This document shows positions 8,287-39,922 of a stretch of DNA of 40,961 bases, in pieces. This stretch comes from Planctomycetota bacterium. Lineage in GTDB: Bacteria; Planctomycetota; Phycisphaerae; UBA1845. Position 1 is the stretch's first letter. The number at the start of each line of letters is the position of its first letter. The translations under genes and the position numbers were made by a program. The notes under the pieces are model-generated. The model made no database searches. It saw nothing but the letters and a program-made list of their open reading frames with translations, and was not told the origin of the DNA. Location: positions 1 to 40,961 of the forward strand of contig JAJRSR010000182.1 of assembly GCA_024278695.1 (NCBI GenBank), written 5' to 3'.

Positions 8287-9672
8287 TTAGTTTGTGCCAA
8301 GGCACCTCGGCCAGTAGTCGTCGGGCGGGGGCGCGTCGCGGTTGCCGTCGGGGCGGATGTGGTCGTAGAGCGATTCTTTCTGTTTGTCGTAGGCGATGCG
8401 CCCGTTGACCACGGTCCAGCGCGAGTGTGTCATGTAATGCAGAATATCGCCATCGGTGATCACAAAGTCAGCATCTTTACCCACCTCGATCGAACCGACG
8501 CGGTGGTCGATACCGAGGATGCGGGCCGCGTCGATCGTGATGGTACGGAGCGCCGCGTCTTCCGAAAGGCCGCCACGCACTGCGAACGCCGCTTCCATGT
8601 TGAGGTGCAGCAGGTCACGTCCGGCCAACCCCCACAGCGTGATCGAAGTCACCGACGGGACGATCGCAATGGGTATGCCGTGCCGCGCGAGAATGGCCGC
8701 GTTCTCAATCGAGCGGCCGGTCTTGCGGTTGATCCGTTCATCGTGGCCCGTGTCGGTGGAGAAGATTGGCGGGCGAATCGAAAGGATCGCAGAAACGCCA
8801 GCCCGCGCCATACGGGACGGCACGGTCCAGCCCTCCATCGCCCCGCGCAGTACGATCTTGATGCCGTAGCGCTCGGCGAGCTCGCAATACTGCACGATCT
8901 CATACGCACGGTCGGCCGATGCCACCGCCACCAACTCGCCACGCATCAACGCGTGAATCTTTTTGAAATCACCCGTGAGCCATTCCTTGTCCGGCTCCTC
9001 GGCTTCGTCATCTTTTTTCTTTTCGTCCGCGTAGATTTCCAGATCACGCATGTACTGACGCACCTTGTCAAACTTCTCACGAAGCTTGCGACGACCATCC
9101 GGGCTCGAACTGCTGTAGCTGAGCTTGTAAAAGAGATCGCGCTTGACGACCAAACCTTCAAGCGTGGAGAACGTGAGCTTGCCAGCCGTGTTGCCGGTGA
9201 CGGCCGTGGTGATGCCACCGGCGAGCCCGATCGTCATGGTCAGCGAGAAAACGTCAGTCGAATCATCCGGCGGCTCACTGCCGATCACACCGCTGCTCGA
9301 CACGGCCACCAACCCCGGGTAAACGTGATAGCCGGACGCGTCGAGCCGCTCGGCTTTTTCCGGCACCTCGACCGATTCTCCGATTTCGATGATCTTGCCG
9401 TTCTTGGTCAGGATCGTCACGTCAAAGAGCGTGGCCCCGGTCACGGTGTGAACGGTACCCGCTTTGATCGCGAAGTAGCGGTCGTCTTTTTTCTTCTTTT
9501 TCTTTTTGTCTTTGTCGTCGTCGGACTTTTCGTCCTTGGCTGCGTCCTTCTTGGCTTCGGTCTTATCTTTACTTGGTTTGTCCTTGTCCGGTTTGGGGTC
9601 GCCAGCGCGAACCAGCGGCACGGTCATCGAAACAATCAACAGGAGCGTTAGCAGTCTGGCACGATGAAGCAT
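8287..9672 (-). CDS. Exported amidohydrolase-fold protein without metal-site HxH (array member 8)
   Basis: 461 residues, last gene of the array; its ATG (9672-9670) shares a base with the TAA of the preceding gene. A Sec signal peptide (LLTLLLIVSMTVPLVRA) is followed by an Asp/Lys-rich stretch at residues 24-64. The amidohydrolase N-terminal sandwich (TILTKNGKIIEIGESVEVP) and YPGLV motif follow, but the next residues are S125-S126-S127 where the family has HxH. The later histidine positions (VASAD, VLRGAMEG) and the C-terminal Asp (VPSVTS) are also replaced. The terminal GSIEVGKDADFVITDGD motif is well kept. The barrel is therefore probably present but not metal-dependent in the usual way. 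It is predicted periplasmic; substrate unknown. Confidence 0.85.
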   Translation of the reverse strand: MLHRARLLTLLLIVSMTVPLVRAGDPKPDKDKPSKDKTEAKKDAAKDEKSDDDKDKKKKKKKDDRYFAIKAGTVHTVTGATLFDVTILTKNGKIIEIGESVEVPEKAERLDASGYHVYPGLVAVSSSGVIGSEPPDDSTDVFSLTMTIGLAGGITTAVTGNTAGKLTFSTLEGLVVKRDLFYKLSYSSSSPDGRRKLREKFDKVRQYMRDLEIYADEKKKDDEAEEPDKEWLTGDFKKIHALMRGELVAVASADRAYEIVQYCELAERYGIKIVLRGAMEGWTVPSRMARAGVSAILSIRPPIFSTDTGHDERINRKTGRSIENAAILARHGIPIAIVPSVTSITLWGLAGRDLLHLNMEAAFAVRGGLSEDAALRTITIDAARILGIDHRVGSIEVGKDADFVITDGDILHYMTHSRWTVVNGRIAYDKQKESLYDHIRPDGNRDAPPPDDYWPRCLGTN

Positions 9673-11069
9673 TACTCGTCCTCGTCCGCGTCGTAAACCG
9701 TTTCGCCGAGAATCATCACACGCCGTACTGTGCTATGCGGATCCAGCGGGTCACCATCAAAGAACACGAGATCGGCATCGCGATCTTTTTCAATACTGCC
9801 GATCTTCTCACCGAGCCCGATCAGCTTGGCCGGGTGCAGCGTCAGCATCTTGTAGGCGTCTTCCTTTTTCAATCCGGCACGCACCAGATCAGCCAACCGC
9901 GCACGAATGCGACTGAGTTCGATCTTTGTATCCGAATACAATACCGCCGAGACTTCGCACTCCGCCTTGACCAACTTGGCCATCAGGTTGTACCGAAACG
10001 TAGTCTGCGGGAGGAAATGCAAATTGGGTCGAATCGCAATCTGCGCCTTGCGCTCTCCGAGCTGTTTCAGCACGTAGTGGTAGTCCGTCGATCGGCCCGT
10101 CGCGAGATACAGCGTGTAGCTGATGTCCTCATACGGCTCCAAGATCTCGTCCAGATGCAGCAGTTCGGCCGCGTCGCTGATCTGTACCATCATCCGGACG
10201 TCGTCTTTCTTCTCGATCAGATCGACGAGCGGCTGGTACTTCGGATCGATAGGCGGCGCCTTGAAGGTTTCGGGCTCTGCCTTCTTGGCCGCAGCGCTAT
10301 CCGCGCCATCAGCCGGCTTGGGTTCTTTCTCGCCGTCTTCGTCATCGCTGGCGCGACGCCCCTTCGGCTTTTCATCGCCCTTGTCATCCCCATCCTTTTC
10401 GCCATCATCCTCGTCGCTATCGGGCTTGTCCGCATCATCACCCTTCTCGGCCTCATCCTTCTTTTTCGCTTGCTTTTCGTCCCACTCCTTGCGGGCCTTC
10501 TCGATCTTTTCGATTTCTTCCTTCGCCTTTTTCAAGGCGTCGCGGAGGGTTGACTTCTTGGTGGCATTGACATGCAAATACCCGGCCCCGGCCACAAGCC
10601 GGGCTTCCTCATCCCCGCCGGTTCGGTAGACCGACGCCATCCCCGGAATGCCTTTTCCCGACGGGATAAAACAGGCTGTGGTGAAACCGGCTTCGCGCAT
10701 CTCGTCGAAACCAACACGGTCGACGTAGATCTCATCGGCGACCGATTGATTGCCGTGGACGCCGCTGCGCGAAAAACGCTTAAGGTCGTAACGCGTGCGC
10801 GGAAGGACGAACCCAGGCATCACGGTCTGACGCTGGGCGTTGATGACCTTAGCCGACGCCGGGAACTCAAGCCCGATACCGACGGCCGTGATCTTGCCAT
10901 CCTCAATCACGATCACGCCGGGAGAAAACTCCTCACCGGAAACCGTAATCACCCGACCGGCCTTGACGGCCACATATTCCGGTTCCTGCGCGTGGGTTGT
11001 GGCCACAAGCACAAACGCACCCACAGCACCCAACAGCCGAAAACTATTTTGTAGCGAACCCATCACCAC
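9672..11069 (-). CDS. Exported amidohydrolase-fold protein with long charged linker (array member 7)
   Basis: 465 residues. The start is GTG at 11069, whose first base is the last base of the upstream TAG; ATG 11063 is an alternative. A signal peptide (LLGAVGAFVLVATTHAQ) leads into a family sandwich (VIVIEDGKITAVGIGLEFP). VMPGFV is followed by R91-T92-R93 in place of HxH. Residues 180-270 begin as a predicted coiled helix and become a Glu/Asp/Lys run that is surely disordered. The barrel resumes at PLVDLIEKKDDVRMMVQ. The equivalents of the two later metal His are lost, while an Asp in LYSDTK may match the last ligand. GSIEKDRDADLVFFDGDPLD closes the protein. It is probably a pseudoenzyme. Confidence 0.85.
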   Translation of the reverse strand: MVMGSLQNSFRLLGAVGAFVLVATTHAQEPEYVAVKAGRVITVSGEEFSPGVIVIEDGKITAVGIGLEFPASAKVINAQRQTVMPGFVLPRTRYDLKRFSRSGVHGNQSVADEIYVDRVGFDEMREAGFTTACFIPSGKGIPGMASVYRTGGDEEARLVAGAGYLHVNATKKSTLRDALKKAKEEIEKIEKARKEWDEKQAKKKDEAEKGDDADKPDSDEDDGEKDGDDKGDEKPKGRRASDDEDGEKEPKPADGADSAAAKKAEPETFKAPPIDPKYQPLVDLIEKKDDVRMMVQISDAAELLHLDEILEPYEDISYTLYLATGRSTDYHYVLKQLGERKAQIAIRPNLHFLPQTTFRYNLMAKLVKAECEVSAVLYSDTKIELSRIRARLADLVRAGLKKEDAYKMLTLHPAKLIGLGEKIGSIEKDRDADLVFFDGDPLDPHSTVRRVMILGETVYDADEDE

Positions 11070-12349
11070 TAGAACCGCCTCTTCACTTTGGCATCGTACA
11101 CGACTTTACCGCGTACGACGGTCATTTCGCAACTCGAACGCGGGTCGATCGGATCACCCGTCCACAGCCCGAAGTCTGCGTCCTTGCCAACCTCAATCGA
11201 ACCCACATGGTCATCAATCAGCAGCGCCTCAGCGGGCATTTTCGTCACGCCCCGAAGCGCCGGATAGGGCAACCACCCGTACCAACACGCCATCGCGGCC
11301 TGATACGACAACTCTTTTTGTGGCACCACCGGCGCATCAGTGTTGATACCCAACTTCTTCACACCGCCCTGCCACCACCGTGCCGCGTTGCCGTGCATCT
11401 TACGCTGCGAAAAATCAAACCAATACTGCCGCGGACCGTTCATCGTATACATGTCTTGCTCCACGACGAGCGGTGCGGTCTTGAAACCGTCAAACGTGGA
11501 GTGATCGAGCACGGTGCGGATGCCAAACTTCTTCGACAGCATATCCACCGTGGTCATGACAACCTGATAAATCTGCGTATGAACCGAAGCGGGAAACTCC
11601 CCGCGAAACAAACCGCGAAACCCATCAAACACCGGATCATACAACGGTTTGTCTTTGGTCTTGCCCTGCTCGAAGGCATTCCAGCCTTCGTGGTAGGCCT
11701 TGGCTTTGTCCAGTGTCTGCCGTGTGTTGTAATTCATGTAGCTGCGACCAACACCAAACCAGTACCATTCCGGATTGCCGGCTTGGGCAATTTTTAGCGA
11801 ACCGGGTGATCGTTGCACGACATCGGCCACTGTTGAACCGCCGGTTTTCGCAACCGTGCCGAACCCGCTCATGTTTGTCCCGCTACCGGGGATGAGCAGC
11901 ACCGGAGTCACACCGCCAGCGCGAGCGCTCTTGATGATCTCGTTGTCGGGGACAATCGTCTCCAACGTGCGTAGGCCGGGGTTTGTCAGATAGACCATGT
12001 CATTCAGGTCCATCAGTGAACCGGCCGTGTGGTTGTGCGCATCGACGAGACCGGGGACAAGCCAAAGATTCTCGGCATTGACCACACGATACCCGGCCGG
12101 CACCTCAAGCTCCTGCCGCGACCCGACGCCCTCAATCTTGCTGCCTTCCACCAGGACGACCGCGTTGTTAATGACGCGGTCCGTGCCGTCCATCGTCACC
12201 AGCTTGCCGACGCGGTAGGCCGTACCACGCTTCGCCGGCGCAGCGTTTGCTGGCATCGACAACACCATCACGGTGAGCGCCACCGCAGCGACGAACGCCG
12301 ATCGGCGCAAGTCAGACCAGCGCGAAGCCACTCGGGAAGTCCTATTCAT
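11069..12349 (-). CDS. Exported metal-dependent amidohydrolase, the one intact member of the array (member 6)
   Basis: 426 residues from ATG at 12349, overlapping the preceding stop by 4 bases (ATGA). A long signal peptide ends near PANA. LVPGLVDAHNHTAG gives H105-x-H107; later come H257 in SVHTQ, H283 in VLDHSTFDG and D338 in NTDAP. This is the complete set expected for a metal-binding amidohydrolase barrel of the PF01979 type. GSIEVGKDADFGLWTGDPIDP completes the C-terminal sandwich. Family enzymes hydrolyse C-N bonds of cyclic amides, imides or acyl-amino compounds; the substrate here cannot be told from sequence. It is the shortest array member apart from the 398-residue protein at 18184-19380 and carries no charged insert. 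Confidence 0.9.
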   Translation of the reverse strand: MNRTSRVASRWSDLRRSAFVAAVALTVMVLSMPANAAPAKRGTAYRVGKLVTMDGTDRVINNAVVLVEGSKIEGVGSRQELEVPAGYRVVNAENLWLVPGLVDAHNHTAGSLMDLNDMVYLTNPGLRTLETIVPDNEIIKSARAGGVTPVLLIPGSGTNMSGFGTVAKTGGSTVADVVQRSPGSLKIAQAGNPEWYWFGVGRSYMNYNTRQTLDKAKAYHEGWNAFEQGKTKDKPLYDPVFDGFRGLFRGEFPASVHTQIYQVVMTTVDMLSKKFGIRTVLDHSTFDGFKTAPLVVEQDMYTMNGPRQYWFDFSQRKMHGNAARWWQGGVKKLGINTDAPVVPQKELSYQAAMACWYGWLPYPALRGVTKMPAEALLIDDHVGSIEVGKDADFGLWTGDPIDPRSSCEMTVVRGKVVYDAKVKRRF

Positions 12350-15126
12350 CGTACCGCCTCCCCGTGAACGATCACGCGTTTGATATAGCTACCGGTTTCG
12401 AACGGATGCCCGCTGAAAATCGCGAGATCACCCTGGCATCCCGGCTTTAGCGAACCTATCTCATCTTCGAGCATGAACATCTTGGCGGGCTGCGTGGTGA
12501 GCGCCGCCAGTGCGGCATCGGCACTGAGCCCGCGTTCTACCGCATACAGCCCCACCAACGGGAGCACCCGTGCGGCATCCTCCGCGTCGCTCTGAAAGGC
12601 GACCGCAACACCTTGACGCGAAAGATCATCTGCTTGGTGGTACGACTCATGGCGTTCCCAACGGATCACATCTTTTGGAACAACCACGCCCACGCCTTTT
12701 TCCGCAAGCGCTTCGGCATGGGCCCTCGCACCCGGCGCGTCGAGCAACAGGTACGGCGTTTCCCACTTATCCATGAACTTGATTACGGCCGCGATCTGCG
12801 CCGGCGCATCCACTTTGATTAGCGCAGGAATCTTCTTCTCGAGTATGCTTCGGATCGGCTCGAGCGCCTCATCCGTCTTTGGCGGCAACGGACGACCATC
12901 CTTGCCGCGCGTTCGGCGCTTGGTCACCTTAAACTCGACCGCCTCTTTGTCTGTACGCTCGGCCTCGAAATCGATATCCATGCTGGCGACAACAATCTTG
13001 CCAACCAGTTTGTCCTCTTCAACGAGATCGGCTTCGATACGGGGCGTCCCCTGACCGCCGGTGTCAACGTCAAGCTCCAACGACAGATGATCGCCAACGA
13101 AAGTCCCCGTCACCTTAAGTTCCTGCGGAGCGCCGGGCGCTGCGAGGCGACCTTCGACATCCTCACCCGTCAGCAGCAAACGCATCGTCACAGTCTGCGG
13201 CTCAGGCAAGGGTCCGCCGGAAATGGTCGCGCTCCAGGTGCCCGTCATGGGGTCACCTTTACCGGATTCGTCTTCAACCTCCTCAGTCTTCGGTTTGCCG
13301 TTGAGCGATTCGCCTTTGGCCTTTTTCTCTTTCCACTCCGCAAGTTCTTTCTCGTATTTCTTCCACTTCTCAAGATACTTCTTGCCCGCTTCGTAGCGAC
13401 CTTTGAGCTTATTACCGATGCCGGCCGGGTCTGCCTTGGAAACGTCAAAAAACACGCCGGCGGTCTCTCGAACCACGCGCGCCTCGCGGGAATCCCCGCC
13501 GGTATGGATCGCCGCGATCTGTGAACCCGAACCGCTCGCGCCATACGACGACAGCATAACGGTTGTCACACCGGCCCGCGCCACGCGCCGGGCGGCCACA
13601 CCAGGCACGCCAACGGTCTTACTCAGTTTCAAATCCGGCGCAGTCGAACCGGAGTCGCCCTCCAAGCCAAGGTGTCCGTGCGCGTCGATAAACCCCGGTG
13701 CGACGAAAGAACCAGCACCGGCATCAATAAACTTCGCAAAGGGTGGATGCGGCACGGTCTTGCCGACCGCGGTGATCTTGCCGTCCTCTATCAGCACGGC
13801 ACCGTTAGTAATCTGCTCATCCTCATTGACCCAGATCGTACCGCCGCGCACGACCAACGCGTTCGTTTCCGGAGCTTCAAACGCCGTCACGCCACCAATA
13901 TAAACACGATGCACATGCGTCGAGGTGGCCAACGGATCACCGGAAAGCACAAGAAGGTCGGCATCCTTACCGGGTTCGAGGCTACCCACGCGATCGGACA
14001 CACCCATGATCTCCGCAGGGATGCGCGTGAGCGCCGCAATCACCCGTGAAGGAGAAAGATCTGCACGAAGCGCTGTCGAAGCCGCAAGCCGAAGATCAAC
14101 CACCGGCGCATCGGTCGTAGCGGCCAGCGCCAACGTGACCCCATCTAACGACCGCAGGGCGTCAACGTCTGCCTGAAGCGCATCGGGATCGAATCCGATA
14201 TCTTCGGCGCGATTTCGCAGCCCCCCGCCCAACTCGAACACCACCGGGATCCCCGCAGCACGAATGGCATCCGCAACCAAGTCGGCCTGCGCACCCCCAA
14301 CGAAATAGGCCCGCCGTTTGTGCCGTTTGAGAAACTCAATCGCGGCGGTCATATCCGCACCGCGATCCACCTGAACACGCAATGTAGCCCGGTCCTGCCA
14401 GAGCCCCGCAAGCGAGACTAAGTGCATCGACGCGAACTCTTGCGGCTCGGACCACGCGAGCGCCTCCTCGAACGCCAACACCTGGCCCATGCGCGAGTCT
14501 GGTCGTTGCCGGATCGGCTGGGGAATGGCCACATCACTGCTGGACGGCATCTGGTAGTTCACGTCTTTCGGCGGATGGTAGACCTGCTCATCGAAAGTCA
14601 CGGTCAGGTCGGCGTTAGGCGTAAGAATGCGTCCGTCGAGCGGTCCGCCAAGCTTCACAACGGCACCCTGCCCGGTGACCAGCCGATGCCGACCCGGGTT
14701 GAGATGCACCGTCGTCACGCCGCCCGCGAGCGTCACGCGATAATCGGCGTACGCCAGATAGCTATCGACGGCCCGGTAGCCGGCCGCGATTGATTCATCA
14801 CCCTCGTGCTCCGGAGCGAGCGACGTCGAAGCGGCCACCAACCCCGGCATCACCACCGCATCGGGCAGGTCAATTACCTCAAGATCCGCCGGAACCGGCA
14901 GGTCAACGCCGACGGCCACGATCTTGCCATCGCGCACAATCACCATGCCCGGTGAAAACGAAGCGATACCATCCTGCGCAACAGGCAGCACCGTGCCGGC
15001 TTTGAGGGCGAAGGATCGCTGTGGGCCATCAGCACGAACGGAACCGCCAAACAGTGCGGCAACCGCTAGTGCCAGAGCTTGACACTTCCGAAACGAACGG
15101 TCAGTTGTGTAGCTGTTGTGACGCAT
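12346..15126 (-). CDS. Exported double-domain amidohydrolase-fold fusion with beta-rich insert (array member 5)
   Basis: 926 residues from ATG at 15126, sharing one base with the preceding TAA. It has a signal peptide (ALALAVAALFGGSVRA) and then two complete amidohydrolase units. Unit 1 (about 38-415) has VMPGLV followed by S100-T101-S102 instead of HxH, though TTDAP (D339) survives. Unit 2 (about 423-926) has FVAPGFIDAHGH with H483 and H485, and SDAED (D847). Its middle His positions read IKVDAP and LLLDAP, so its metal site is incomplete. Unit 2 is split by a predicted coiled helix (573-605), an acidic linker and a beta-rich segment (628-738). Both units end with GSL-type Asp motifs. Fusion of two array members is the simplest origin. 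Confidence 0.88.
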   Translation of the reverse strand: MRHNSYTTDRSFRKCQALALAVAALFGGSVRADGPQRSFALKAGTVLPVAQDGIASFSPGMVIVRDGKIVAVGVDLPVPADLEVIDLPDAVVMPGLVAASTSLAPEHEGDESIAAGYRAVDSYLAYADYRVTLAGGVTTVHLNPGRHRLVTGQGAVVKLGGPLDGRILTPNADLTVTFDEQVYHPPKDVNYQMPSSSDVAIPQPIRQRPDSRMGQVLAFEEALAWSEPQEFASMHLVSLAGLWQDRATLRVQVDRGADMTAAIEFLKRHKRRAYFVGGAQADLVADAIRAAGIPVVFELGGGLRNRAEDIGFDPDALQADVDALRSLDGVTLALAATTDAPVVDLRLAASTALRADLSPSRVIAALTRIPAEIMGVSDRVGSLEPGKDADLLVLSGDPLATSTHVHRVYIGGVTAFEAPETNALVVRGGTIWVNEDEQITNGAVLIEDGKITAVGKTVPHPPFAKFIDAGAGSFVAPGFIDAHGHLGLEGDSGSTAPDLKLSKTVGVPGVAARRVARAGVTTVMLSSYGASGSGSQIAAIHTGGDSREARVVRETAGVFFDVSKADPAGIGNKLKGRYEAGKKYLEKWKKYEKELAEWKEKKAKGESLNGKPKTEEVEDESGKGDPMTGTWSATISGGPLPEPQTVTMRLLLTGEDVEGRLAAPGAPQELKVTGTFVGDHLSLELDVDTGGQGTPRIEADLVEEDKLVGKIVVASMDIDFEAERTDKEAVEFKVTKRRTRGKDGRPLPPKTDEALEPIRSILEKKIPALIKVDAPAQIAAVIKFMDKWETPYLLLDAPGARAHAEALAEKGVGVVVPKDVIRWERHESYHQADDLSRQGVAVAFQSDAEDAARVLPLVGLYAVERGLSADAALAALTTQPAKMFMLEDEIGSLKPGCQGDLAIFSGHPFETGSYIKRVIVHGEAVR

Positions 15127-16604
15127 TAGTTATTGCTGTCCGATTCACCCTTGTCGGCGGGTGTGTCTTTAGTGGTTGCGTCCGTTTTGTCAGATCCGGC
15201 GGCCGCATCGCCGGCTTTTTCATCTGCCTTGCCGTTGGTTTTTTCTTCCGCTTTTTTGTCGGCGTCGCCGTTCGCTTCCTCGGACACCTCTGCCGGGTCA
15301 TCCCCGAAAAGCTGTTTGAGACGCACGTCTTCCGATCGCTCGTACGCCTTGATTCCTTTGATATACACCTGTTCGACCCAGGTGCTAAAATCAAGCGGAT
15401 CACCGCTGAGCACGACGATGTTGGCGAGCTTGCCCGCTTCCAGGCTGCCGAGTTTCTTGTCCATGCCGAGAGCCTTCGCGGGATAGAGCGTGATCGCCTT
15501 GAGGGCACGGCTACGGGACACGCCACCACGCACGCAGCGCGCTGCTTGATAATTCAAGTACCGCTCGGCCAGTGATGTATTGGGGCTCGGCAACAGGGAA
15601 AACCGCAATCGCGCGTCGGCAAAAACCTTCGGCACGAAGGTTTCCACCAGTTTTCCAGTCAAAGAATCACGTTCACGATGAACGAGCTCCGGACCGAGCA
15701 CGACAGGACGCTCTGCCTTTTTCAACTCCGCGATCGCCTTGTAGCAATGCGTACCAAGCACGAACACCATTCGATCAAAGAAGCCATGCTTCTTGGCCAG
15801 GGCGATCGCACGACCGACATCGCCGGCACGATCGCAATAGACGAAAGTGGTTAACTCGCCGCGTGTCAGCTTGATGAGGTTCGCGTGTTTGTCGTCGTAG
15901 TCCTCAAATTTGATGAGTTCCTTGCCGCGCTTCTGCGCCTCCTCCGGACCAACGTCGATCTTCTCATCCTTCTCTTCCAGCGATTCCTCGTACTTCTTCT
16001 CGGCGAGCTTTTCGAGATAATCGTCCAGTTCGAGAAATGTCTCGCGTAGCGTGGCAAACTGAACCATGCGATCCGATCCGCGCTTCGGAGCCACGCTGAT
16101 CTTCAACGCGACGTCGGCGGCCTGGGTCATCTCTTCCGGCGTCATGCCGATGGGGTGAATCAGTCGGCTCAAGCCGCCGATCACGGTGTTGTGACCGTGC
16201 GTGATGTGAATCGAAGTGATCCCGTCGCGCAGCGCGTCTTCAAAATACAGTTTGGACGGGTCAATCGAATCATAGACATTCAGAAACGGCGTGACCGGAG
16301 CGTTTTCGTTGGAAACGTCCATGCCGCGCTGCGAATGAGCGTCGATCATACCAGGCATCACGACCTTACCGCTTACATCCACAACCATCGCATCGTACGG
16401 AATCTCAACATCAGCCCCGACGGCCGTAATCTTGCCGTGCTCGATCAACACGGTGCCCTTGTCAATCACCTTGCCGACGACGGGAATGATCTTGCCACCC
16501 TGGAGTGCAAGCTTGACCGGCGGGACGGCCCACGACGGTGTGGCCACAATGAAGGGCGTAGCCAACAGCACCGCCACACCCAAGAAAGTTGTTCGCATCT
16601 TCAC
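15126..16604 (-). CDS. Exported amidohydrolase-fold protein, HxH reduced to HxQ (array member 4)
   Basis: 492 residues. The start is GTG at 16604, with AAGGA 10 bases upstream; ATG 16598 is an alternative. The signal peptide is FLGVAVLLATPFIVATPSWA. VVMPGMIDAH is followed by S-Q, so the first metal His (H90) is kept and the second is Gln92. The histidines of later strands are missing (FVYCDRAGD; FVLGTHCY) and the terminal Asp is replaced (LLPSPNTS). Residues about 190-235 are a charged helical stretch. The last 55 or so residues are an Ala/Asp/Lys/Thr-rich tail. GSLEAGKLANIVVLSGDPLD lies before the tail. It looks like a partly decayed enzyme. It is separated from the preceding array gene by 85 bases, the longest gap in the array. 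Confidence 0.86.
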   Translation of the reverse strand: MKMRTTFLGVAVLLATPFIVATPSWAVPPVKLALQGGKIIPVVGKVIDKGTVLIEHGKITAVGADVEIPYDAMVVDVSGKVVMPGMIDAHSQRGMDVSNENAPVTPFLNVYDSIDPSKLYFEDALRDGITSIHITHGHNTVIGGLSRLIHPIGMTPEEMTQAADVALKISVAPKRGSDRMVQFATLRETFLELDDYLEKLAEKKYEESLEEKDEKIDVGPEEAQKRGKELIKFEDYDDKHANLIKLTRGELTTFVYCDRAGDVGRAIALAKKHGFFDRMVFVLGTHCYKAIAELKKAERPVVLGPELVHRERDSLTGKLVETFVPKVFADARLRFSLLPSPNTSLAERYLNYQAARCVRGGVSRSRALKAITLYPAKALGMDKKLGSLEAGKLANIVVLSGDPLDFSTWVEQVYIKGIKAYERSEDVRLKQLFGDDPAEVSEEANGDADKKAEEKTNGKADEKAGDAAAGSDKTDATTKDTPADKGESDSNN

Positions 16605-16689
16605 AGCTCTACCGTCCTTATCGCTTTTCTATGCCAGCGTCATATCCGGCTCGCCGCACGCGCCGTGCAGCACTTCTTCTGCGACCTTG

Positions 16690-18156
16690 TTATCCCTTAC
16701 GGCGGTCAACCACGACCTCACCGCGAATCATCACAACCACCGGCTTCGACGTCGCCCCAAACGGCTCGCCGCTCCACAGCACGAGATCGGCCTGCTTCTT
16801 GGCAGCCACCGTACCGAGTCGATTATCCAGCCCCAACAGTTTGGCCGGCATCTGCGTCACAGTCGGCAACACCTGCTCCAAAGTCGCACCGTTTCGCATC
16901 GCGTACATCGCCTGCCGCGCGAGCCCATCTTCATCACGAAGCTCTTGCGCCGTCAGCGCCGTTTCCACACCGGCATTCAAGAGTGCCAAGAACGTATGCA
17001 GCCGATTGCGATGCGTCTCTGCGGCGTGCGCCCGATGACCTGGAGCGGACACATAGATGGGACCAAATATCACCGGGACGTGACGCGCAACGATTTCATC
17101 CAAGCACCGATACGCCTCCGTCGCCTCTTCAAGCACAAACGAGAGTCCGAACTCCTCCGTCAACCGAAGCGCAGCCATGATATCATGCTGCATGCGTGCC
17201 TGGATCCGAAGCGGAATCTCTCCGCGACGAACACCGTCGATCACCTTCAACGCCGAGTCGCACGCCGTATCCGCCCCGCCACGGGGCTCACCCTTTTTCC
17301 ACCGCTGGGCATCGTGAAACGCCTTGCGAAACACCCACGTCACACCCATCCGCGTGGTGGGACGCCGCGTGTTGAACGAAACGAACTGGCGAAACGGCAT
17401 GTTGTTGGACATGCCGCGCCACGACGGATCAGTCCCCATCGAAGCCTTCACGGCTCCAGCCTCACGAATCACCCGATCAGACGTCGCACCTGCCGTTTGC
17501 ACAACCGCACCGCGCGAGCCAATGACCGCAGCGGAATCCGGCGCGACAAAAACCGTCGTCACACCACCGGCCGCAAGCCGCCCAAAATCCGGACTGCGCA
17601 GATTGACCGAATCAATCACACACGTATGGGGAATGACCTCTGATGATTGCTCTGCACTGACAGCCGACGGCCGCGTGCCGGCAGCCAAGACCGGGGGAAC
17701 GTCAGGAAAACCGCACGACGAGCACTTCGCGCCGTCAGCGTGCATGTACGAACGAGGGCACATCGACCCGCAACACCCAACCGTGCCCGCGTGGTTATGG
17801 TTGGGGTCGTGAAACAGCTCGCGAAGAACAGCGGCCGCACTCGGCAACGGCGTCACCAACCTGTCTGTGGCTTCAACCCAAGCGTTCGCGTCGATCAACC
17901 CCGGCGTGATGGAACCGCCCTTCAGGTCGATCACCACAGCACCCGAAGGTACACTCACATCAGCGCCGACGGCCACGATGCTGCCGTCTCGAACGACAAC
18001 CGCACCCCCCTCAACCACCGAACCGTCACCGACGTATATCTTAGCCGCCCGAATGACGGTGACACCATCGGCAGCCAGCACTGAAGCAGCGCCAAGACAC
18101 ACCCACGCGGCCAACCACGTCCGTAGCATCGTACGACTTCGTTGTCTTGCCTTCAT
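16690..18156 (-). CDS. Exported amidohydrolase-fold protein with Cys-rich insert (array member 3)
   Basis: 488 residues from ATG at 18156, with AAGGAG 7 bases upstream (a strong site). The signal peptide is TWLAAWVCLGAASVLA. TPGLIDA is followed by N91-A92-W93 in place of HxH. Residues 117-150 hold a His/Cys-rich insert: HDPNHNH, then Cys 128, 129, 133, 145 and 148, ending CSSCGF. This resembles a small zinc-binding loop or a disulfide knot, which is unusual inside this fold. The helix-strand segment GEIPLRIQARMQHDIMAALR has Gln where the family has His, and LEEATEAY has Ala where it has His. No terminal Asp ligand is seen (ALTAQE). The final KKQADLVLWSGEPF motif is kept. It is probably non-hydrolytic or uses a relocated metal site. 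Confidence 0.86.
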   Translation of the reverse strand: MKARQRSRTMLRTWLAAWVCLGAASVLAADGVTVIRAAKIYVGDGSVVEGGAVVVRDGSIVAVGADVSVPSGAVVIDLKGGSITPGLIDANAWVEATDRLVTPLPSAAAVLRELFHDPNHNHAGTVGCCGSMCPRSYMHADGAKCSSCGFPDVPPVLAAGTRPSAVSAEQSSEVIPHTCVIDSVNLRSPDFGRLAAGGVTTVFVAPDSAAVIGSRGAVVQTAGATSDRVIREAGAVKASMGTDPSWRGMSNNMPFRQFVSFNTRRPTTRMGVTWVFRKAFHDAQRWKKGEPRGGADTACDSALKVIDGVRRGEIPLRIQARMQHDIMAALRLTEEFGLSFVLEEATEAYRCLDEIVARHVPVIFGPIYVSAPGHRAHAAETHRNRLHTFLALLNAGVETALTAQELRDEDGLARQAMYAMRNGATLEQVLPTVTQMPAKLLGLDNRLGTVAAKKQADLVLWSGEPFGATSKPVVVMIRGEVVVDRRKG

Positions 18157-18183
18157 GGGAACACTCCTTCACACACAGCAGTA

Positions 18184-19380
18184 TCAGTCAACATCGCCAG
18201 CGGCCCGCAGCGCCGCATGGTCGGCGTAAACGCGCGTTCCGCCGATGTAGACAGCTAGCACTTTCGCATCGAGCCGAAGCGGGTCATCAGAAAAAATCAC
18301 GAAATCCGCATCCTTGCCGGTCTCAATCGAGCCGATGCGATCGACCACACCCGCGACCTTGGCGGCGGTAATGGTCATCCCACGCCGGGCGGCTTCCGGT
18401 GCCATCCCATACCGAACGGCCAGTGCCGCCGTTAGCCGCACCGAATCTCTGCCCCGAACGGGCACCTGACCGGCAAACGCCACAGGCACCTCTTTATTGG
18501 ATAGTGTCCCGGCAAGCGCCAGCTCTCGCGGTGGCGTATCAAGACCGTAAGGTCCGACCACCACCGTCGTCGCCCGCCCGCTCAACTCATTGGCCAGGTC
18601 ATGCTCGCCGCCAGTGTGAACAATCGCATCAGGACCGGCCACCGTATCAAACAGGCGAAGCACCGCGCTCACGTCCATCGCGTCATCACAGTACACCAGG
18701 GACGTCAGCCCGCCCTTGACCATCGCGTTGAGTCGCGGATGAGCCTGACCGCGCCGCGCGGTGTCGAAAAGATCACGCAACATCGCCAATGAGCCGGTCC
18801 GAGAGGTCGGAGACCGATCATAGCGCCACACCTGAGGTCCAAGCGACAGCACCAGCGGGCCATCCGCACGAAGCACCACAGCACGCGAGGGGTCCGTTTT
18901 GATCACAGCCGCAACGCCGGAAACGAGGTTGTGCGGCGACGGAGAAATCATCGCAGCCGTCACACCGGCAGACAATGCCGTTTTGAAATCACGATGATGC
19001 CAATCAATCCCATCGATCGCGTTAACGGAAGGATCAATCGCGTTCTTGGATTCGTTGGTCTGACCGTAGCTGCCGATGTTGGAACGTAAATCAATGAGGC
19101 CGGGACACACCACCGCGTGGGCATACGCCCCGGTCGCCGGCTCGTCGGTCATCTTGATCGAGGCAAACTTCCCATCCCGAAGCTCAATATTCGCCGAAGG
19201 CTTCAGCGTACCGTCTGGCGCGACATACCGACCGACCAAGATCGTGGATGGCTGTTGCGCAAGCGCACGTGACGCAACCGCCGACAAGGCCAACGTGAAA
19301 ACAGCCGCTAATACAAACCCAAAGTGCCGCGATCGGCGAATGGAAAAACGATGAGCGTGTCGTGGATGTCGATGGTTCAT
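18184..19380 (-). CDS. Exported amidohydrolase-fold protein without HxH (array member 2)
   Basis: 398 residues from ATG at 19380, overlapping the first array gene's TGA by 4 bases. The signal region is long, with an N-terminal Arg/His-rich stretch and then FVLAAVFTLALSAVASRALA. The sandwich is shortened (ANIELRDGKFASIKMTD). VCPGLID is followed by L-R99-S-N101 instead of HxH. GLTSLVYCDDAMD and VHTGGEH sit where later ligands would be and do not match the family pattern. VAFAGQ replaces the terminal Asp segment. GSIETGKDADFVIFSDDPL is intact. There is no charged linker, so this is the most compact pseudoenzyme of the set. Confidence 0.84.
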   Translation of the reverse strand: MNHRHPRHAHRFSIRRSRHFGFVLAAVFTLALSAVASRALAQQPSTILVGRYVAPDGTLKPSANIELRDGKFASIKMTDEPATGAYAHAVVCPGLIDLRSNIGSYGQTNESKNAIDPSVNAIDGIDWHHRDFKTALSAGVTAAMISPSPHNLVSGVAAVIKTDPSRAVVLRADGPLVLSLGPQVWRYDRSPTSRTGSLAMLRDLFDTARRGQAHPRLNAMVKGGLTSLVYCDDAMDVSAVLRLFDTVAGPDAIVHTGGEHDLANELSGRATTVVVGPYGLDTPPRELALAGTLSNKEVPVAFAGQVPVRGRDSVRLTAALAVRYGMAPEAARRGMTITAAKVAGVVDRIGSIETGKDADFVIFSDDPLRLDAKVLAVYIGGTRVYADHAALRAAGDVD

Positions 19381-21065
19381 CGGTCGCCCTCCGCACTGGC
19401 GTCGAAGGCGATCTCGCCGTTGATTAGTACCTGCTCGACGCGCGACCCCGGATCGGAAGGATCACCGGACCAGATCACGAGATCGGCGGCCGCACCAGAT
19501 CGAAGTCGACCGGCTCTGCCGCCAAGCCCAATCACGCGGGACGCCCGCGAAGTCACCCGTGAGAGCCAATCGTCCGATCCGACAGCACCCTGGCTCGTCG
19601 CGCCGTAGCCGGACGCCATCTGTGCGTTGAACCCGACAAATCGGGATGAGGTCGCACTGCCGCCGCTACCGATCGACCATGACACGCCAGCCTGACTCAA
19701 GGCGGCAGCATTACGACGAGAATGTCGACGGAACGCGCCATCCTGGAAAAGCTCGGAACGGGACACGCGACCGAGCACCACAGAGACCTTCGCCTCCGCA
19801 AGCTGATCCGCAACTAGGTACGCCTCGGTCGCGCCTTCGATCACGATGTCAATCTTGAATTCATCAGCCAATTCGAGCGCGTTCAAAATGCTCGCGCTGC
19901 GATAGGCCCGAATGCGAACGATCAATTCATGGTCGATCGCACGAAGCAGCACGTCGCTCTTGCGATCTGGGGCCGGTTGTTCCGGCTTCTCCAACTCGTC
20001 GTCGTCTTCATCATCCCCATCCTTGTCGCCGTCCTTCTTGTCGCCACCTTTGTCGTTTCCGGGCTTCTTGCCATTCTCGCCGTCAGCGCCACGGGCTCCG
20101 GACAACAAGGGACGAAGGCCGGCACCGTCCGGCTTGGGATCAGGTTTCGGCTTCGGCTTCGGCTTTGGATCGGGTTTCGGGTCAGGTTTCGGTTTCGGCT
20201 TGTCTTTGTCCTTTTCCTTGTCTTTATCTTTATCGCCACCGGACTCATCATCCGAATCGCCCTTCTTCTTGGGCTTGGACTCATCGTCGGCGTCTTTCTC
20301 GTCGCCAGCCTCCTCAGCCTCTTCTTTCTCCTTTTCCTTGCGGCGTTCTTCGAGTTTTTCGATATATTCTTTCAGTTCTTCGTCGTAGTCTTCCAACGCG
20401 CGACGGTAAACCTCAGCCTTTTTGAACGCTTTGCGAACCTTCTGAAACGTTTTCAGCCGTCCCAGCGCAGATTCCGAAGATCCGAAATCAACACACAACG
20501 CTGCGTCATCGTCAATAATCTTCGCGATCGGACCGGACTCACCGGGACTCAACTGCAACACCGCGCCGATGCCATTCACACCAGCACCACCGTTCGTTCC
20601 CACGAACATCGTCGTCACACCGTTGCGAAGCGCATCTCGAAAGGCCTCATGATCATAGGTGGCTACGGCATCTGACGCGCGGGAAGTCGGATCAGCCGAG
20701 GACGATGCGCCCGCGTGCCCCAGACCGCTCCACACGTCGATCAAACCGGGAGACACCGTCTTTCCTGCAGCGTCGATCTTCTTGGAGAACATGGGCGCAC
20801 TAACCTCAGAGCCCAGCTCTACGATTCGACCACCCTTGATCACGATAGAACCACGCTCGACCACCGGACCGGTCTGCGTCACGATTCTAGCGTTTTCAAT
20901 AACCGTCGCCCGGTCGAACAGTTGTGCGAAGACGGAAACCGGAAGCGACATAACGGAAGCTGCAACCAACGCCAGAATACGACGTTGAAAACCGGCATGA
21001 CGCCGAGAACCGGACCCGCGCCAAGAACTCGACCTAACGAAGAAGCGACTCACCGCCGTCACCAT
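19377..21065 (-). CDS. Exported amidohydrolase-fold protein with large Lys/Asp/Pro linker (array member 1)
   Basis: 562 residues from ATG at 21065, chosen because AAGGA lies 6 bases upstream; an in-frame ATG at 21086 is weaker. The signal peptide follows an Arg-rich n-region (RRILALVAASVMSLPVSVFAQ). VSPGLID is followed by V-W-S-G rather than HxH. Residues about 210-245 form a predicted charged coiled helix, which passes into a Lys/Asp/Glu/Pro run to about residue 365 with a KPDPKP repeat. The barrel resumes at LLRAIDHELIVRIRAYRSAS; the family His of EH-TEAY is Ala (IEGATEAY). No terminal Asp ligand is visible. AAADLVIWSGDPSDPGSRVEQ ends the domain. It is the first gene of the array. Confidence 0.86.
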   Translation of the reverse strand: MVTAVSRFFVRSSSWRGSGSRRHAGFQRRILALVAASVMSLPVSVFAQLFDRATVIENARIVTQTGPVVERGSIVIKGGRIVELGSEVSAPMFSKKIDAAGKTVSPGLIDVWSGLGHAGASSSADPTSRASDAVATYDHEAFRDALRNGVTTMFVGTNGGAGVNGIGAVLQLSPGESGPIAKIIDDDAALCVDFGSSESALGRLKTFQKVRKAFKKAEVYRRALEDYDEELKEYIEKLEERRKEKEKEEAEEAGDEKDADDESKPKKKGDSDDESGGDKDKDKEKDKDKPKPKPDPKPDPKPKPKPKPDPKPDGAGLRPLLSGARGADGENGKKPGNDKGGDKKDGDKDGDDEDDDELEKPEQPAPDRKSDVLLRAIDHELIVRIRAYRSASILNALELADEFKIDIVIEGATEAYLVADQLAEAKVSVVLGRVSRSELFQDGAFRRHSRRNAAALSQAGVSWSIGSGGSATSSRFVGFNAQMASGYGATSQGAVGSDDWLSRVTSRASRVIGLGGRAGRLRSGAAADLVIWSGDPSDPGSRVEQVLINGEIAFDASAEGDR

Positions 21066-21272
21066 TTCGATTCCTTCTGCCAGCATAAGCGACCTGTATT
21101 AACGAATGCCTCTTTCGCCACTCCGCGTGCGACTGCGACCACCACGTTGCGCTTCGCAACAGGTGCCGACCGACGCTGGCCCCTCCAGACCAAGCACGCA
21201 CCACCCACTTCGAAGCGTTACTATAGTCGGTTCGCGCTTTCAATGGAATATAATGTTTCGAGAAACACGACG

Positions 21273-22461: not shown

Positions 22462-24591
22462 GTGACGAAAACGCTAAACCTGATTAAGAACCCCGCCTTC
22501 TCTGAGGGCAAAAAGAAACCACTGCGCTGGGACTGGCTCACCACGGACGATGCCGTCATTGTCGAGCGACCCGACGCTGGCGAAGGAATCACCATCCGCT
22601 GCGACCAGCCGGTCGCGTCGGCCATGCTCACCCAAACGGTGACTTGCAAGCCGGATGAGTTTTTCCGAGTCGAAGCCATCATTTCTTGTGATTTGACTGC
22701 CCATGACGCCGCTTCCGGCCTTGTCCTGACGGCCCAGCCATTTGACAAGACCACCCCGGCAGGCGAAAAGCTCACAACCAATGCCACAACAATAGCTTAC
22801 GATCCATTCACGGTCTGCGCCTACATCGAAGTCCCCGAAGGTGCCCGGCGTCTCGCCATTGGGATTGGCCTGGAAAACGCCTGCGGCAGCGTGACGATTC
22901 ACAGGGTGTCCGTCCTTGGCGTACTTGAGCCGGAAGAAACGTCCCACATCGTCGCTTTTCCGTCACCCGCCTACGCCCTGCCTGCCCCTCGAACCGCCAA
23001 GACCGTGGCTATCTGTTCAGGTAAAGCAGACGACCGACCGCTAGCGTCGATCCTTCGTACGGTCCTCGGGCGTAAAAACGTCAGCACGTTAGCCCCGACC
23101 GATTTTCAGAAAAAACTGCCAAAGACCGACGCCGTGTTGATCCTGGACGATTCCCCGCCGACCGGTCTACGGTCGATGACGGCCTTAGTAAAACTGGCTG
23201 AAGAGCGAATCGTCGTCGTCTCGACGGCCACGTTCTCCAAAATCACCAAGGGTATCGCACGGGTCCGCCGGGTGGACCAGGAGGACGACCCGATCTGTGC
23301 CAAGGTGGTCTTCGCCAACCACGCGACTCGGGGCTTCGCGCTGAATGATCTGTTTCCATATGCCGGCCCTGGTGAGCAACCCGGCGGTTACGCTCAGAAT
23401 CAGTTTCGCACCGGACCGGACTTCACCAAGTTTTGCGAGCAGCACAAACTCATCACGCTACTGACCTCGATGTGCAACCAGGAGAACACGTCCGACAAAC
23501 CGGTCTGCCTCTATCGCGAGACGAAACGCGGCGGGCTGTTCGTGCTCGATCTTAACCCCGTCGAATGCGTGCCCACCTCGGAGGGAAATCCCACGATCGC
23601 GCTGCACCTGCTACGAAATGTCCTGGGCCATGCGCAGCACTGCCTCGGTCAGTACGCAGCGCCGATCCAGGAGGAGTACGAAATCCGCGACATTTTTCGT
23701 GAGATGAACATTCGCTTTCCCGAGTTTGTGGAACATTCAGAAGATATCCCGATCCGGGACGTCACGGATCAGCTCATCACCATTGGTCGAGATGACGCGA
23801 GCTACGGACTGCCGCTGCGGCAAAAGCCGGTGGTTTTAGTACGAAGCGGGCTTCACTCCGGTGATGCCGAGAGCGTGTATGGTGCGTTCTTTTGGTTCAA
23901 GCAGTTGGTCCGGATGCCGCCATTCACCTGCACCTATAGTGAATCCCTCGCATCGAAGTTCCGATTGGCGTGGGCACCGATGGTCGCCGGGTGGGACGGT
24001 CGCTACGGGTGGCGTCGCGGGAATCGCACGCCGCTGCAAGACATGGAAATCGAAGCTGAGGACGGCGCGTTTGCCGTGCTTATTGATCTGGTTTCGGTTC
24101 CCTGGAACCGCGCTCGGGTTGTCGTTCCCTCGCGCCGCGGACGATACCAGCGGTACGCCCAGTGGCTGCCGGCGTTGCAGGAATCTTTTTCCGCCGGAAA
24201 TTATTTCGCCTATGCACCACCGCACGGTGAATTGTTTTCGGATCGCACGAAATACGCATGGCGCCGCGCAACGCCACCGGTTTCGGTAACGACGGACGAC
24301 ACGTTGTTTGAGACCGACGCCCACCGTCAAGCGCAGGCCGCCGGTGCCGAGTTGGTTCGCATTGAAGTCCCGGGGCACGACGCCGATTTCTCCAGCCACT
24401 CGATCTACCGCACGGATCTGACGGCCTCCCTCTTGGAGTGGGTCATCGGGCTCCAGTACGGGTTGGTCGCGGTGAACCGGACAGAACGAAAAATCCGCTG
24501 CAACGGCTTTGAGCCGGTGGCACCGGGGTCAGCCCTGGTCGTCGATGGCAACGACGTCATGCTGCGTCCAGCCTCATCGAAGGTCGGATAA
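22462..24591 (+). CDS. Large protein of unknown function with N-terminal jelly-roll-like domain
   Basis: 709 residues from GTG at 22462, with GAGAGG about 11 bases upstream. There is no signal peptide or membrane segment. Residues 1-155 start NLIKNPAFSEG and run through alternating strands to a VTIHRVSVLG segment, the usual look of a carbohydrate-binding-module-type beta sandwich. Residues about 170-400 alternate strands and helices (TVAICSG, AVLILDDSPP, ERIVVVSTATFSK, GGLFVLDLNP), resembling a Rossmann or glutamine-amidotransferase-like sandwich without a visible catalytic triad. The rest (about 420-700) matches nothing I recognise; it contains GLHSGDAESVYGAFFWF and a Trp/Arg-rich WDGRYGWRRGNRTP segment. 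Lack of an export signal is odd for a sugar-binding-like module. No function is proposed. Confidence 0.8.
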   Translation: MTKTLNLIKNPAFSEGKKKPLRWDWLTTDDAVIVERPDAGEGITIRCDQPVASAMLTQTVTCKPDEFFRVEAIISCDLTAHDAASGLVLTAQPFDKTTPAGEKLTTNATTIAYDPFTVCAYIEVPEGARRLAIGIGLENACGSVTIHRVSVLGVLEPEETSHIVAFPSPAYALPAPRTAKTVAICSGKADDRPLASILRTVLGRKNVSTLAPTDFQKKLPKTDAVLILDDSPPTGLRSMTALVKLAEERIVVVSTATFSKITKGIARVRRVDQEDDPICAKVVFANHATRGFALNDLFPYAGPGEQPGGYAQNQFRTGPDFTKFCEQHKLITLLTSMCNQENTSDKPVCLYRETKRGGLFVLDLNPVECVPTSEGNPTIALHLLRNVLGHAQHCLGQYAAPIQEEYEIRDIFREMNIRFPEFVEHSEDIPIRDVTDQLITIGRDDASYGLPLRQKPVVLVRSGLHSGDAESVYGAFFWFKQLVRMPPFTCTYSESLASKFRLAWAPMVAGWDGRYGWRRGNRTPLQDMEIEAEDGAFAVLIDLVSVPWNRARVVVPSRRGRYQRYAQWLPALQESFSAGNYFAYAPPHGELFSDRTKYAWRRATPPVSVTTDDTLFETDAHRQAQAAGAELVRIEVPGHDADFSSHSIYRTDLTASLLEWVIGLQYGLVAVNRTERKIRCNGFEPVAPGSALVVDGNDVMLRPASSKVG

Positions 24592-27479: not shown

Positions 27480-27512
27480 CGCGTAGGCCGGGTACCATGC
27501 CCGGCCTACGCG
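27480..27512. repeat. Perfect 13-base-pair hairpin at a convergent gene junction
   Basis: CGCGTAGGCCGGG (27480-27492) and CCCGGCCTACGCG (27500-27512) pair perfectly around a 7-base loop. The right arm contains the TAG stop of speB (27506-27508). It lies between the convergent protease and speB genes. Neither side has a T-tract, so it is not a classic intrinsic terminator, though it could slow RNA polymerase or protect 3' ends. Confidence 0.65.
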
Positions 27513-28378
27513 TCGAGGTGGACGTAGCACATCAGCTTGTGCGCGAGGCGCGCGGCCAGGTACTCCGTCACGACCTGACCGGGGATCGGCATCACCTCGA
27601 CGATGTCGGCACCGATGATCTTTTTTTCTGACGCCACAAGCCGCAAGAGGCCCGTCACCTGATACCAATCCAACCCGCCGGGCTCCGGCGTACCCGTGCC
27701 CGGCGCGATCGACGGATCAAAGCCGTCAATATCAAGCGTAACGTAAACCACATCGCCCAGGGTATCGAGCACACGATCAAGCCAACCCTCGTCGCTGTGA
27801 CAATCGAGGGCCGTAACCGGGTTGATCTTCGCGCGGCGTGCGAACCGATGCTCACTCTCATCCATCGACCGGATACCCACCGGCACGACTGAAGCTCCCA
27901 TCTCAACCACCCGCCGCATGACGCAGGCGTGGGAAAACTTCGTATCGTGGTAGGTGTTGCGAAGATCAAGGTGGGCGTCGATCTGCAAGACCGACAGCTT
28001 CTTGTGCTTCGTCATGGCGGCCCGAATTAGCGCGGACGTGATGCTGTGGTCACCGCCGAGCCCGAACAAGAACTTCCCATCACGAACGACGCGCCGCGCC
28101 GCCTTGAACAGATCCTCGTGCATCGCCTCGGGACCGGCAAGGTTCGGCTCTAGAAAATCGAGCGTGGCGATGCCGCACTCATAACACGACCCGACCAGTT
28201 CATCATCAAAGTATTCCACATGCTGTGAGGCGCTGAGAATCGCAGCAGGCCCGTAGCGGGTGCCGGAGTTGTAACTGGTGGCCGCGTCATAGGGGACGGG
28301 AAGCACAGCAAACTTCGCAGCATCGTAATCAGCGTATTGGGCTTCGAGCCCGAGAAAGTTCTGCGGCAGCGCGTTCAT
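27506..28378 (-). CDS. speB: Agmatinase (agmatine ureohydrolase)
   Basis: 290 residues from ATG at 28378; longer in-frame starts add 17 residues without family resemblance. It hydrolyses agmatine to putrescine and urea with a binuclear Mn site. The ligands are visible as H111 in GGDHS, D134, H136 and D138 in DAHLDLR, and D216 and D218 in DIDGFDP. Within the ureohydrolase family the surrounding residues and the neighbouring arginine decarboxylase favour agmatinase over arginase or formiminoglutamase. It is last in a three-gene polyamine operon, 71 bases after the deoxyhypusine-synthase-like gene. It ends inside a 13-base-pair hairpin. Confidence 0.92.
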   Translation of the reverse strand: MNALPQNFLGLEAQYADYDAAKFAVLPVPYDAATSYNSGTRYGPAAILSASQHVEYFDDELVGSCYECGIATLDFLEPNLAGPEAMHEDLFKAARRVVRDGKFLFGLGGDHSITSALIRAAMTKHKKLSVLQIDAHLDLRNTYHDTKFSHACVMRRVVEMGASVVPVGIRSMDESEHRFARRAKINPVTALDCHSDEGWLDRVLDTLGDVVYVTLDIDGFDPSIAPGTGTPEPGGLDWYQVTGLLRLVASEKKIIGADIVEVMPIPGQVVTEYLAARLAHKLMCYVHLDA

Positions 28379-28449
28379 GAGGTTTCCCGAAAATATTTCA
28401 CGGGCCGAGGCACGGCAACCACCTACCACAAACCGATTGCTTTGGCCGA

Positions 28450-29592
28450 TTACTTTGGGTCGTCAAGGTACTTCGAGTACTGCGCTCGGTAGGCCGGATG
28501 GTTCGCAGCAACGTCACGCATCACGTCTGTCATCTCTCCGATCCGCGTAAACAAGCGGCGTTGTTTACGCTTGGCCGCTTTCACCAAGGCGTACTGAGCA
28601 ATCAACGGGAACGTCAGCGATGCACACGAATACACGACGACGTTGTTCTGGCGCGCATCTTTGAGCTTGCCCCAGCTACGCGCCTCTGACGGTGTGGCAC
28701 CAGACAGGCCGCCCCAATGCGGCGAGTCCGTCGTAAGCTGTAAGAAGTAATCATGCCCGCCCTTGGTTTTATCGAGAAGAATCTGGTGCAATGTCGGCTG
28801 CGTTTGAAGATAAAAGTTCTTCGGTGAGCCGCCGCCGATTTCCACCACACCGTTGATATCCGCGTCGCGAACGATCGCGGCCGTCTCGATCACGTCGAGC
28901 AGCGGGTTGAGGTTCACATCCTGACCGTGGAGCTGCGGTACGATCAGGTTCATGCCGATCGACGAATCACCGGGCGACGACGTATAGATCGGCACGTCAT
29001 ACTTGGCGGCCGTCGCCACAAACGACTTCTCCGGGTGCGGCGCGGTCTCAAAGACCATCTGCCCGAGCTTGTGGTGTAACGTGGCCGTCGAAAATGGCTT
29101 CGACGTGTCCATCTGTTTGACTGCGTCGAGGATAACCGTGTCGGTGGCCATCAACGTGTCGTCGTCGGCGATGAACACATCGTAGATTCGCGCAACGCCC
29201 TCATCAGCCAACGCATTGTCGTCCACGTCCGGGCTGCCCTGAACCATCGGAAACTCATACGGACGGTGAAGGTCGTGGTAAAGGTTGGCACCGGTCGAGA
29301 TGATAAAATCAACCATGCCGGCTTCGATCAGCGATGAGAAAATACCGCTCATACCGATCGGCGTCATGGCACCGGCAATGGTCAGCCCGACCGTCGCGTT
29401 GTTGTCAAGCATGGACCGGTAGAGCTGAGCGCCCTCGGCCAGCCGCCGACCGTTAAAACCGCTTCGCGCGAAGACGTTGTCAATCAAGTCTACAACCGAT
29501 TCGTTTCCCGCAAGCTCCAGTGGCTCGATCATCGGGCCTTGCAAAGGGTCTTGGCTGTTAGGACAACGGGCGTGGTGGGGATCATGGGTCAT
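28450..29592 (-). CDS. Deoxyhypusine-synthase-like protein, probable homospermidine synthase
   Basis: 380 residues from ATG at 29592 (ATG 29532 also possible). The deoxyhypusine synthase fold is clear: VGLTIAGAMTPIGMSGIFSSLIEAGMVDFIISTGAN for the NAD-binding start, EIGGGSPKNF with K258 at the place of the catalytic lysine, and SGATPSEARSWGKL near the C-terminus. In eukaryotes and archaea this enzyme modifies eIF5A with spermidine. Bacteria lack eIF5A, and several bacterial homologues instead make homospermidine from putrescine or spermidine. Its place between an arginine decarboxylase and an agmatinase, which supply putrescine, supports that role. The exact donor (spermidine or putrescine) cannot be read from the sequence. 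The protein is cytoplasmic. Confidence 0.9.
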   Translation of the reverse strand: MTHDPHHARCPNSQDPLQGPMIEPLELAGNESVVDLIDNVFARSGFNGRRLAEGAQLYRSMLDNNATVGLTIAGAMTPIGMSGIFSSLIEAGMVDFIISTGANLYHDLHRPYEFPMVQGSPDVDDNALADEGVARIYDVFIADDDTLMATDTVILDAVKQMDTSKPFSTATLHHKLGQMVFETAPHPEKSFVATAAKYDVPIYTSSPGDSSIGMNLIVPQLHGQDVNLNPLLDVIETAAIVRDADINGVVEIGGGSPKNFYLQTQPTLHQILLDKTKGGHDYFLQLTTDSPHWGGLSGATPSEARSWGKLKDARQNNVVVYSCASLTFPLIAQYALVKAAKRKQRRLFTRIGEMTDVMRDVAANHPAYRAQYSKYLDDPK

Positions 29593-39898: not shown

Positions 39899-39922
39899 GA
39901 TCCCGTTCTCCGGCTGCATCGT

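Follow-up and report, generated by a model that had tools for sequence, protein, structure and literature searches.

Introduction

The described enzymes closest to the locus reported here are the Cog1228-type amidohydrolases, which share their fold and metal-ligand set with g6, the sixth gene of an eight-gene planctomycete array. The group includes Thermotoga maritima 3ooq, the Caulobacter carboxypeptidase Cc2672 (3mtw), the prolidases 3feq/3n2c and 2qs8, and bile salt hydrolases of the metallo type (PMC13081902). One of these last, BwBSH1, lost its activity on alanine substitution at each of H110, H112, K373, H441, H474 and D583 (PMC13081902). For 3ooq, our search found no substrate assignment. 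To our knowledge, the described Cog1228-type enzymes are single or homo-oligomeric, and none has been reported with seven inactive paralogous proteins.

Inactive members of the fold are known from other settings. The pseudo-dihydroorotase of Pseudomonas has lost its zinc ligands and is needed for the assembly and activity of aspartate transcarbamoylase (PMC7053772). There, as proposed here, an inactive amidohydrolase-fold subunit serves an enzyme complex, but the active partner has an unrelated fold, there is one type of pseudoenzyme and the system is cytoplasmic. Collapsin response mediator proteins, which are dihydropyrimidinase-like (e.g. PMC4051505), likewise comprise several inactive amidohydrolase-fold paralogues, and mixed tetramers are discussed for them in the literature. 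Unlike the array, they are eukaryotic and cytosolic, their genes are unlinked and the complex has no active member. In the TldD/TldE metalloprotease the metal site lies on one partner only. The enzyme is a heterodimer of two paralogues (PMC5810440), and in this it resembles the two-gene pairs described below; it differs from the array in its unrelated fold, its single partner as against seven, and its cytoplasmic location. The pseudo-dihydroorotase and TldD/TldE are precedents for parts of the mechanism proposed here.

Results

Organization of the array

The window, the whole stretch of DNA analysed, is a 40,961-nucleotide planctomycete contig. A Pfam profile search found nine amidohydrolase-fold domains in eight consecutive minus-strand ORFs at 8287-21086, bearing out the gene and domain count of a first-pass annotation made from the sequence. 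The genes and parts, in the order of transcription g1, g2, g3, g4, g5, g6, g7, g8, are as follows.

19377..21086, minus strand: g1, exported amidohydrolase-fold pseudoenzyme of 569 aa that has lost the metal site and carries a long, charged insert of low complexity
18184..19380, minus strand: g2, exported amidohydrolase-fold pseudoenzyme of 398 aa that has lost the metal site
16690..18156, minus strand: g3, exported amidohydrolase-fold pseudoenzyme, 488 aa, lysine column alone partly kept
15126..16604, minus strand: g4, exported amidohydrolase-fold pseudoenzyme of 492 aa, first His and Lys retained in many cases, rest lost
12346..15126, minus strand: g5, exported fusion of two pseudoenzyme domains, 926 aa (5a, residues 1-421; 5b, residues 422-926)
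12949..13242, minus strand: beta-rich domain predicted from the structure model, about 100 residues (629-726), inserted in the g5b barrel
11069..12349, minus strand: g6, sole catalytically competent subunit by residue content, six metal ligands kept
9672..11069, minus strand: g7, exported amidohydrolase-fold pseudoenzyme of 465 aa, beta-8 Asp retained in most cases, the remaining ligands lost in most
8287..9672, minus strand: g8, exported amidohydrolase-fold pseudoenzyme of 461 aa that has lost the metal site

Each of the eight proteins scores above the cut-offs for Amidohydro_1 (PF01979) and Amidohydro_3 (PF07969), with two copies in g5, and the superfamily fold is assigned to the eight by profile and to g6 and g5 also by structure matches of their models. 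From g1 to g8 the junctions are a 4-nt overlap, a 27-nt gap, an 85-nt gap, and then 1-, 4-, 1- and 1-nt overlaps. The five overlaps and two gaps among seven junctions agree with the first reading of the locus, with the qualification that the ORFs were called mechanically and that start positions and some overlaps are approximate. Position 21065, the upper end given in the first reading, corresponds to residue 8 of the 569-aa g1 ORF, its second in-frame ATG; with a GAGGGG motif immediately upstream, it is a plausible start. As had been noted earlier, no transporter, regulator or other enzyme lies inside the window array. Scans for promoters and terminators returned matches at chance level only, with no promoter-like site on the minus strand. 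Both g1 and g7 contain long inserted runs of Lys, Asp and Glu; in g8 a shorter run, rich in Lys and Asp, lies just after the signal peptide.

A basic-hydrophobic-AxA N-terminus of the kind found in Sec signal peptides is present on every one of the eight window proteins, in line with the signal peptides claimed for each gene. By the same simple heuristic, with flanking ORFs and internal stretches as controls, an export segment was detected in 72-100% of array proteins per position; the corresponding rates in the controls were 38% for the flanking ORFs and 12% for the internal stretches.

Gene order is conserved across planctomycetes

We searched 150 related genomes for g6 and found strong orthologues in 34, the window's own included (53-76% identity, E<1e-60). 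The surroundings were retrieved for 29 of these 34, and in 28 order-level relatives the order g1-g2-g3-g4-g5a+g5b-g6-g7-g8 holds wherever the contig reaches, each member being orthologous to its position. The gene g8 occurs in the identical 34 of 150 relatives as g6, and g3 in those 34 plus one genome that is 63% complete. With the exception of this incomplete genome, the array is present whole or is absent. Across the phylum, 103 of the 392 genomes and 67 of the 267 genera have a g6 orthologue (E<1e-60); the genomes surveyed are mostly metagenome assemblies.

A scan of 84,980 species genomes yielded 80 array loci, all from planctomycete or uncultured genomes; the exceptions are two records with the same array whose titles read Bacillota and Vicinamibacteraceae. 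The phylum-wide search added 20 loci, many of them divergent, and 98 distinct loci remained after duplicates were removed. Essentially every one of these shows the g1-g8 order unchanged, and contigs that end early show the corresponding portion. In the most divergent families the labels g1, g3, g5b and g7 are sometimes ambiguous, as is expected of distant paralogues. Identical gene order in 98 distinct loci puts the array far beyond chance. Spacing is constrained: the median gap at every main junction is −4 to +6 nt over all loci, g5b and g6 overlap by 4 nt in 70 of 89 loci, and a single junction in the whole set, g7-g8 of L156 (2.7 kb), leaves room for a foreign gene. The neighbourhood survey proposed with the first description has thus found order conserved, and homologues are not scattered singly in relatives.

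The invariant order, the overlaps suggestive of translational coupling and the all-or-none presence support the view that the genes form one unit, and to that extent the earlier proposal that the proteins act together is strengthened. From spacing and conservation we infer that the eight genes are co-transcribed. In a tree of 118 domains the array positions fall into separate clades, with little or no mixing (11 label changes against a minimum of 10), which indicates that the nine domains diverged before the sampled lineages split. Judged from these comparisons, the array is ancient and fixed.

Conserved neighbours were also sought as a guide to substrate. The genes scpB and mgtE flank the array in close relatives only; flanks differ between families, no neighbour is shared across families and none indicates a pathway. 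Neither was a transporter consistently linked to the array among the loci compared, and a transcarbamoylase partner, looked for in the array and its neighbours, was absent from the former, while among the latter no gene is conserved across families. A plus-strand gene of 709 aa without a Pfam match (window 22462-24591), divergent from scpB, recurs beside the array in close relatives. Elsewhere in the window, an arginase-family gene adjoins a deoxyhypusine-synthase-like gene (27506-29592), which suggests polyamine metabolism. Genes for type II secretion, two of the F type and one for a secretion ATPase (T2SSE), lie at 37806-40954, about 17 kb from the array; no secretion genes were seen conserved beside the array in other families.

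g6 retains a complete metal site

The six metal ligands of g6 (H105, H107, K186, H257, H283 and D338) make up the set of the binuclear amidohydrolase type (HxH, Lys, His, His, Asp). They are invariant in 30 of 30 near relatives, and over all loci, tandem duplicates included, 142 of 145 g6 copies carry all six; the remaining three have gaps or one substitution at ligand positions. These positions stand at the 93rd-99th conservation percentile of the protein, whose median dN/dS is 0.067. The AlphaFold model of g6 (mean pLDDT 83) finds its best structure match in Thermotoga 3ooq (E 4.5e-28, TM 0.75-0.85), which is likewise the best sequence match (E 6.6e-33). In a search of NCBIfam no equivalog cut-off was reached, and the best match, to a 'Xaa-Pro dipeptidase' model, scored 64.6 bits against a cut-off of 500.

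By residue content g6 is the sole complete metalloenzyme among the nine domains. The first-pass annotation had treated the eight proteins as equivalent; this picture needs revision, as the other eight domains lack the metal site. The division of one paralogue with a metal site and partners without it, as in TldD/TldE, is thus found here at the level of residues. Some families carry 2-5 tandem g6 genes (1-5 copies per array overall) with the scaffold set unchanged, and nearly every well-covered tandem copy keeps the whole metal site. This suggests that the catalytic member is multiplied while the inactive set stays single.

Degenerate domains lose the pocket and keep the fold

No more than three of the six metal ligands are present in any g1, g2, g3, g4, g5a, g5b, g7 or g8 domain (638 domains scored), so that none of the eight has a binuclear site. 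The residues at the former ligand positions vary among species, and these positions mostly rank low in conservation within their domain, in many cases under the 35th percentile; this holds for the pocket positions of g2, g5a, g5b and g8 and for several of those in g1, g4 and g7. The exceptions are two positions in g3, the Asp on strand 8 of g7, and a glycine at the strand-6 position of g1, g5a and g8. Median dN/dS, taken from pairs with unsaturated divergence, nonetheless points to strong purifying selection and comes close to the value for g6: 0.15 for g1, 0.14 for g2, 0.09 for g3, 0.09 for g4, 0.13 for g5a, 0.07 for g5b, 0.12 for g7 and 0.07 for g8. Low dN/dS together with drifting pockets indicates that selection holds the fold and something outside the old pocket, and a role in assembly fits this better than does a conserved ligand bound in that pocket. 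A graded binding system, one of the functions suggested at first reading, is accordingly disfavoured as far as the usual pocket is concerned.

The model of g5 (mean pLDDT 84) also has 3ooq as its best structure match and shows a beta-rich insert in its second barrel. The structure predictions suggested for checking the locus thus place both g6 and g5 among amidohydrolase structures. The g5b insert (window 12949-13242, residues ~629-726) begins with a conserved TGTW-type start and has no sequence match in Pfam or the PDB.

Fusions and two-gene pairs

The g5a-g5b fusion is found in every array. Two other fusions join adjacent members, g4-g5 in L088 (1473 aa) and g7-g8 in L162 (888 aa), each a single case in a metagenome assembly. 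The source genome also encodes an exported two-gene relative on another contig (G000 contig C74, L068:5930-8799), in which gene A is intact and gene B degenerate. Among the pairs sampled in related genomes (L068 and L169-L188), gene A has all six ligands in 21 of 21, and gene B lacks at least the second HxH histidine in 21 of 21, with other positions changed in most. These pairs belong to the same superfamily branch as the array and share its combination of an active and a degenerate gene, but they consist of two genes and occupy their own clades in the tree, and no individual member of the array derives from them. They look like a widespread type of active/inactive pair for which no function has been described. 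With 21 pairs out of 21, the succession of an active gene and a degenerate paralogue is a recurrent design in these bacteria, of which the array is the most elaborate form. The generalization that amidohydrolases usually occur singly, with which the locus was first contrasted, does not always hold in this branch, in which active-plus-degenerate pairs are common in the same bacteria. Open frames of ~1350-1650 codons with a g6-like domain (26-32% identity) are common in the same bacterial order, for example G008:C15:21958-23073 and G030:C88:34416-35546.

Discussion

We propose that the product of the array is probably a metal-dependent amidohydrolase of the periplasm, a hetero-oligomer in which g6 is the one catalytic subunit and the seven pseudoenzyme proteins are structural. 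The eight proteins would be co-translated, exported by Sec and assembled in the periplasm into one defined complex, with the pseudoenzyme domains in a structural or allosteric role towards g6. Stoichiometry may be set in part by translational coupling and by the fusion of g5a to g5b. The reaction would be hydrolysis of an amide or peptide-like bond, in a substrate that is either imported or part of the envelope. Where families carry tandem g6 genes, up to five copies of the catalytic gene stand beside the same scaffold set. Gene order, coupling, all-or-none presence, dN/dS, position-wise clades, fusions and the 21 of 21 active-then-degenerate pairs together favour this hetero-oligomer. In a more specific form, on which we are tentative and which we hold to be somewhat less likely than its negation, the eight site-less domains would build, in a periplasmic machine spread across the phylum, a shell or ring of fixed composition round one or a few catalytic subunits, an exported counterpart of the multi-paralogue rings of eukaryotic chaperonins and proteasomes.

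Co-occurrence and fixed order would also fit a functional pathway whose members make no physical contact. The degenerate proteins could, for instance, be independent periplasmic ligand-binders that scavenge substrates or present them to g6, in one pathway with no complex. All are exported, co-occurrence suits any functional link, and at former ligand positions g3 keeps a conserved Arg and acidic residues and g7 an Asp, so that g3 and g7 might still bind something. We nevertheless regard independent binders as unlikely for the set as a whole, given the poor conservation of the other pockets, the lack of a consistently linked transporter, and the fixed order, coupled starts and fusions between array members, all of which suggest controlled stoichiometry.

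Alternatively, some degenerate domains might be active by other chemistry, with one metal or none, and the operon would then supply enzymes with different substrates. Mononuclear amidohydrolases exist, and some residues persist at ligand positions: His and Lys in g4 of many species, a single His together with Asp or Asn in g5b, and Asp in g7. An array of diverse enzymes is still improbable, more so than one of ligand-binders: three is the most ligands that any degenerate domain retains, the residues at ligand positions differ between species, and in the related BwBSH1 the loss of any single ligand kills activity (PMC13081902). Although g6 is frequently duplicated in tandem in some families, the idea that tandem duplication and decay left the array behind, its degenerate copies having no function, is contradicted by the selection and order data (dN/dS of 0.07-0.15 in every degenerate domain, one-to-one positional orthology, order conserved in 98 loci, metal sites kept in duplicated g6 copies) and can be rejected with near certainty. 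An assembly artefact was rejected on the strength of the 98 distinct loci, and a misplaced housekeeping cluster was considered and rejected.

A literature search of open-access scope returned nothing relevant on amidohydrolase arrays, pseudoenzyme amidohydrolases or planctomycete amidohydrolase operons, and in the open literature we found no report of the array locus or of an operon that combines one enzyme with eight inactive paralogous domains. This suggests that, while the amidohydrolase fold and the idea of an inactive partner are already known, their combination with eight inactive domains is undescribed.

If the proposed hetero-oligomer is correct, the array would represent an extreme of pseudoenzyme evolution, in which eight domains of the same fold are kept by selection round a single enzyme, in a fixed order that spans about a quarter of the sampled planctomycete genomes and for which no function has been described. 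It would offer a clear genetic model for studying what leads bacteria to replace a homo-oligomer by a hetero-oligomer, with the simpler active-plus-degenerate pairs of the same organisms as a tractable entry point, and it may point to a novel substrate in the planctomycete periplasm.
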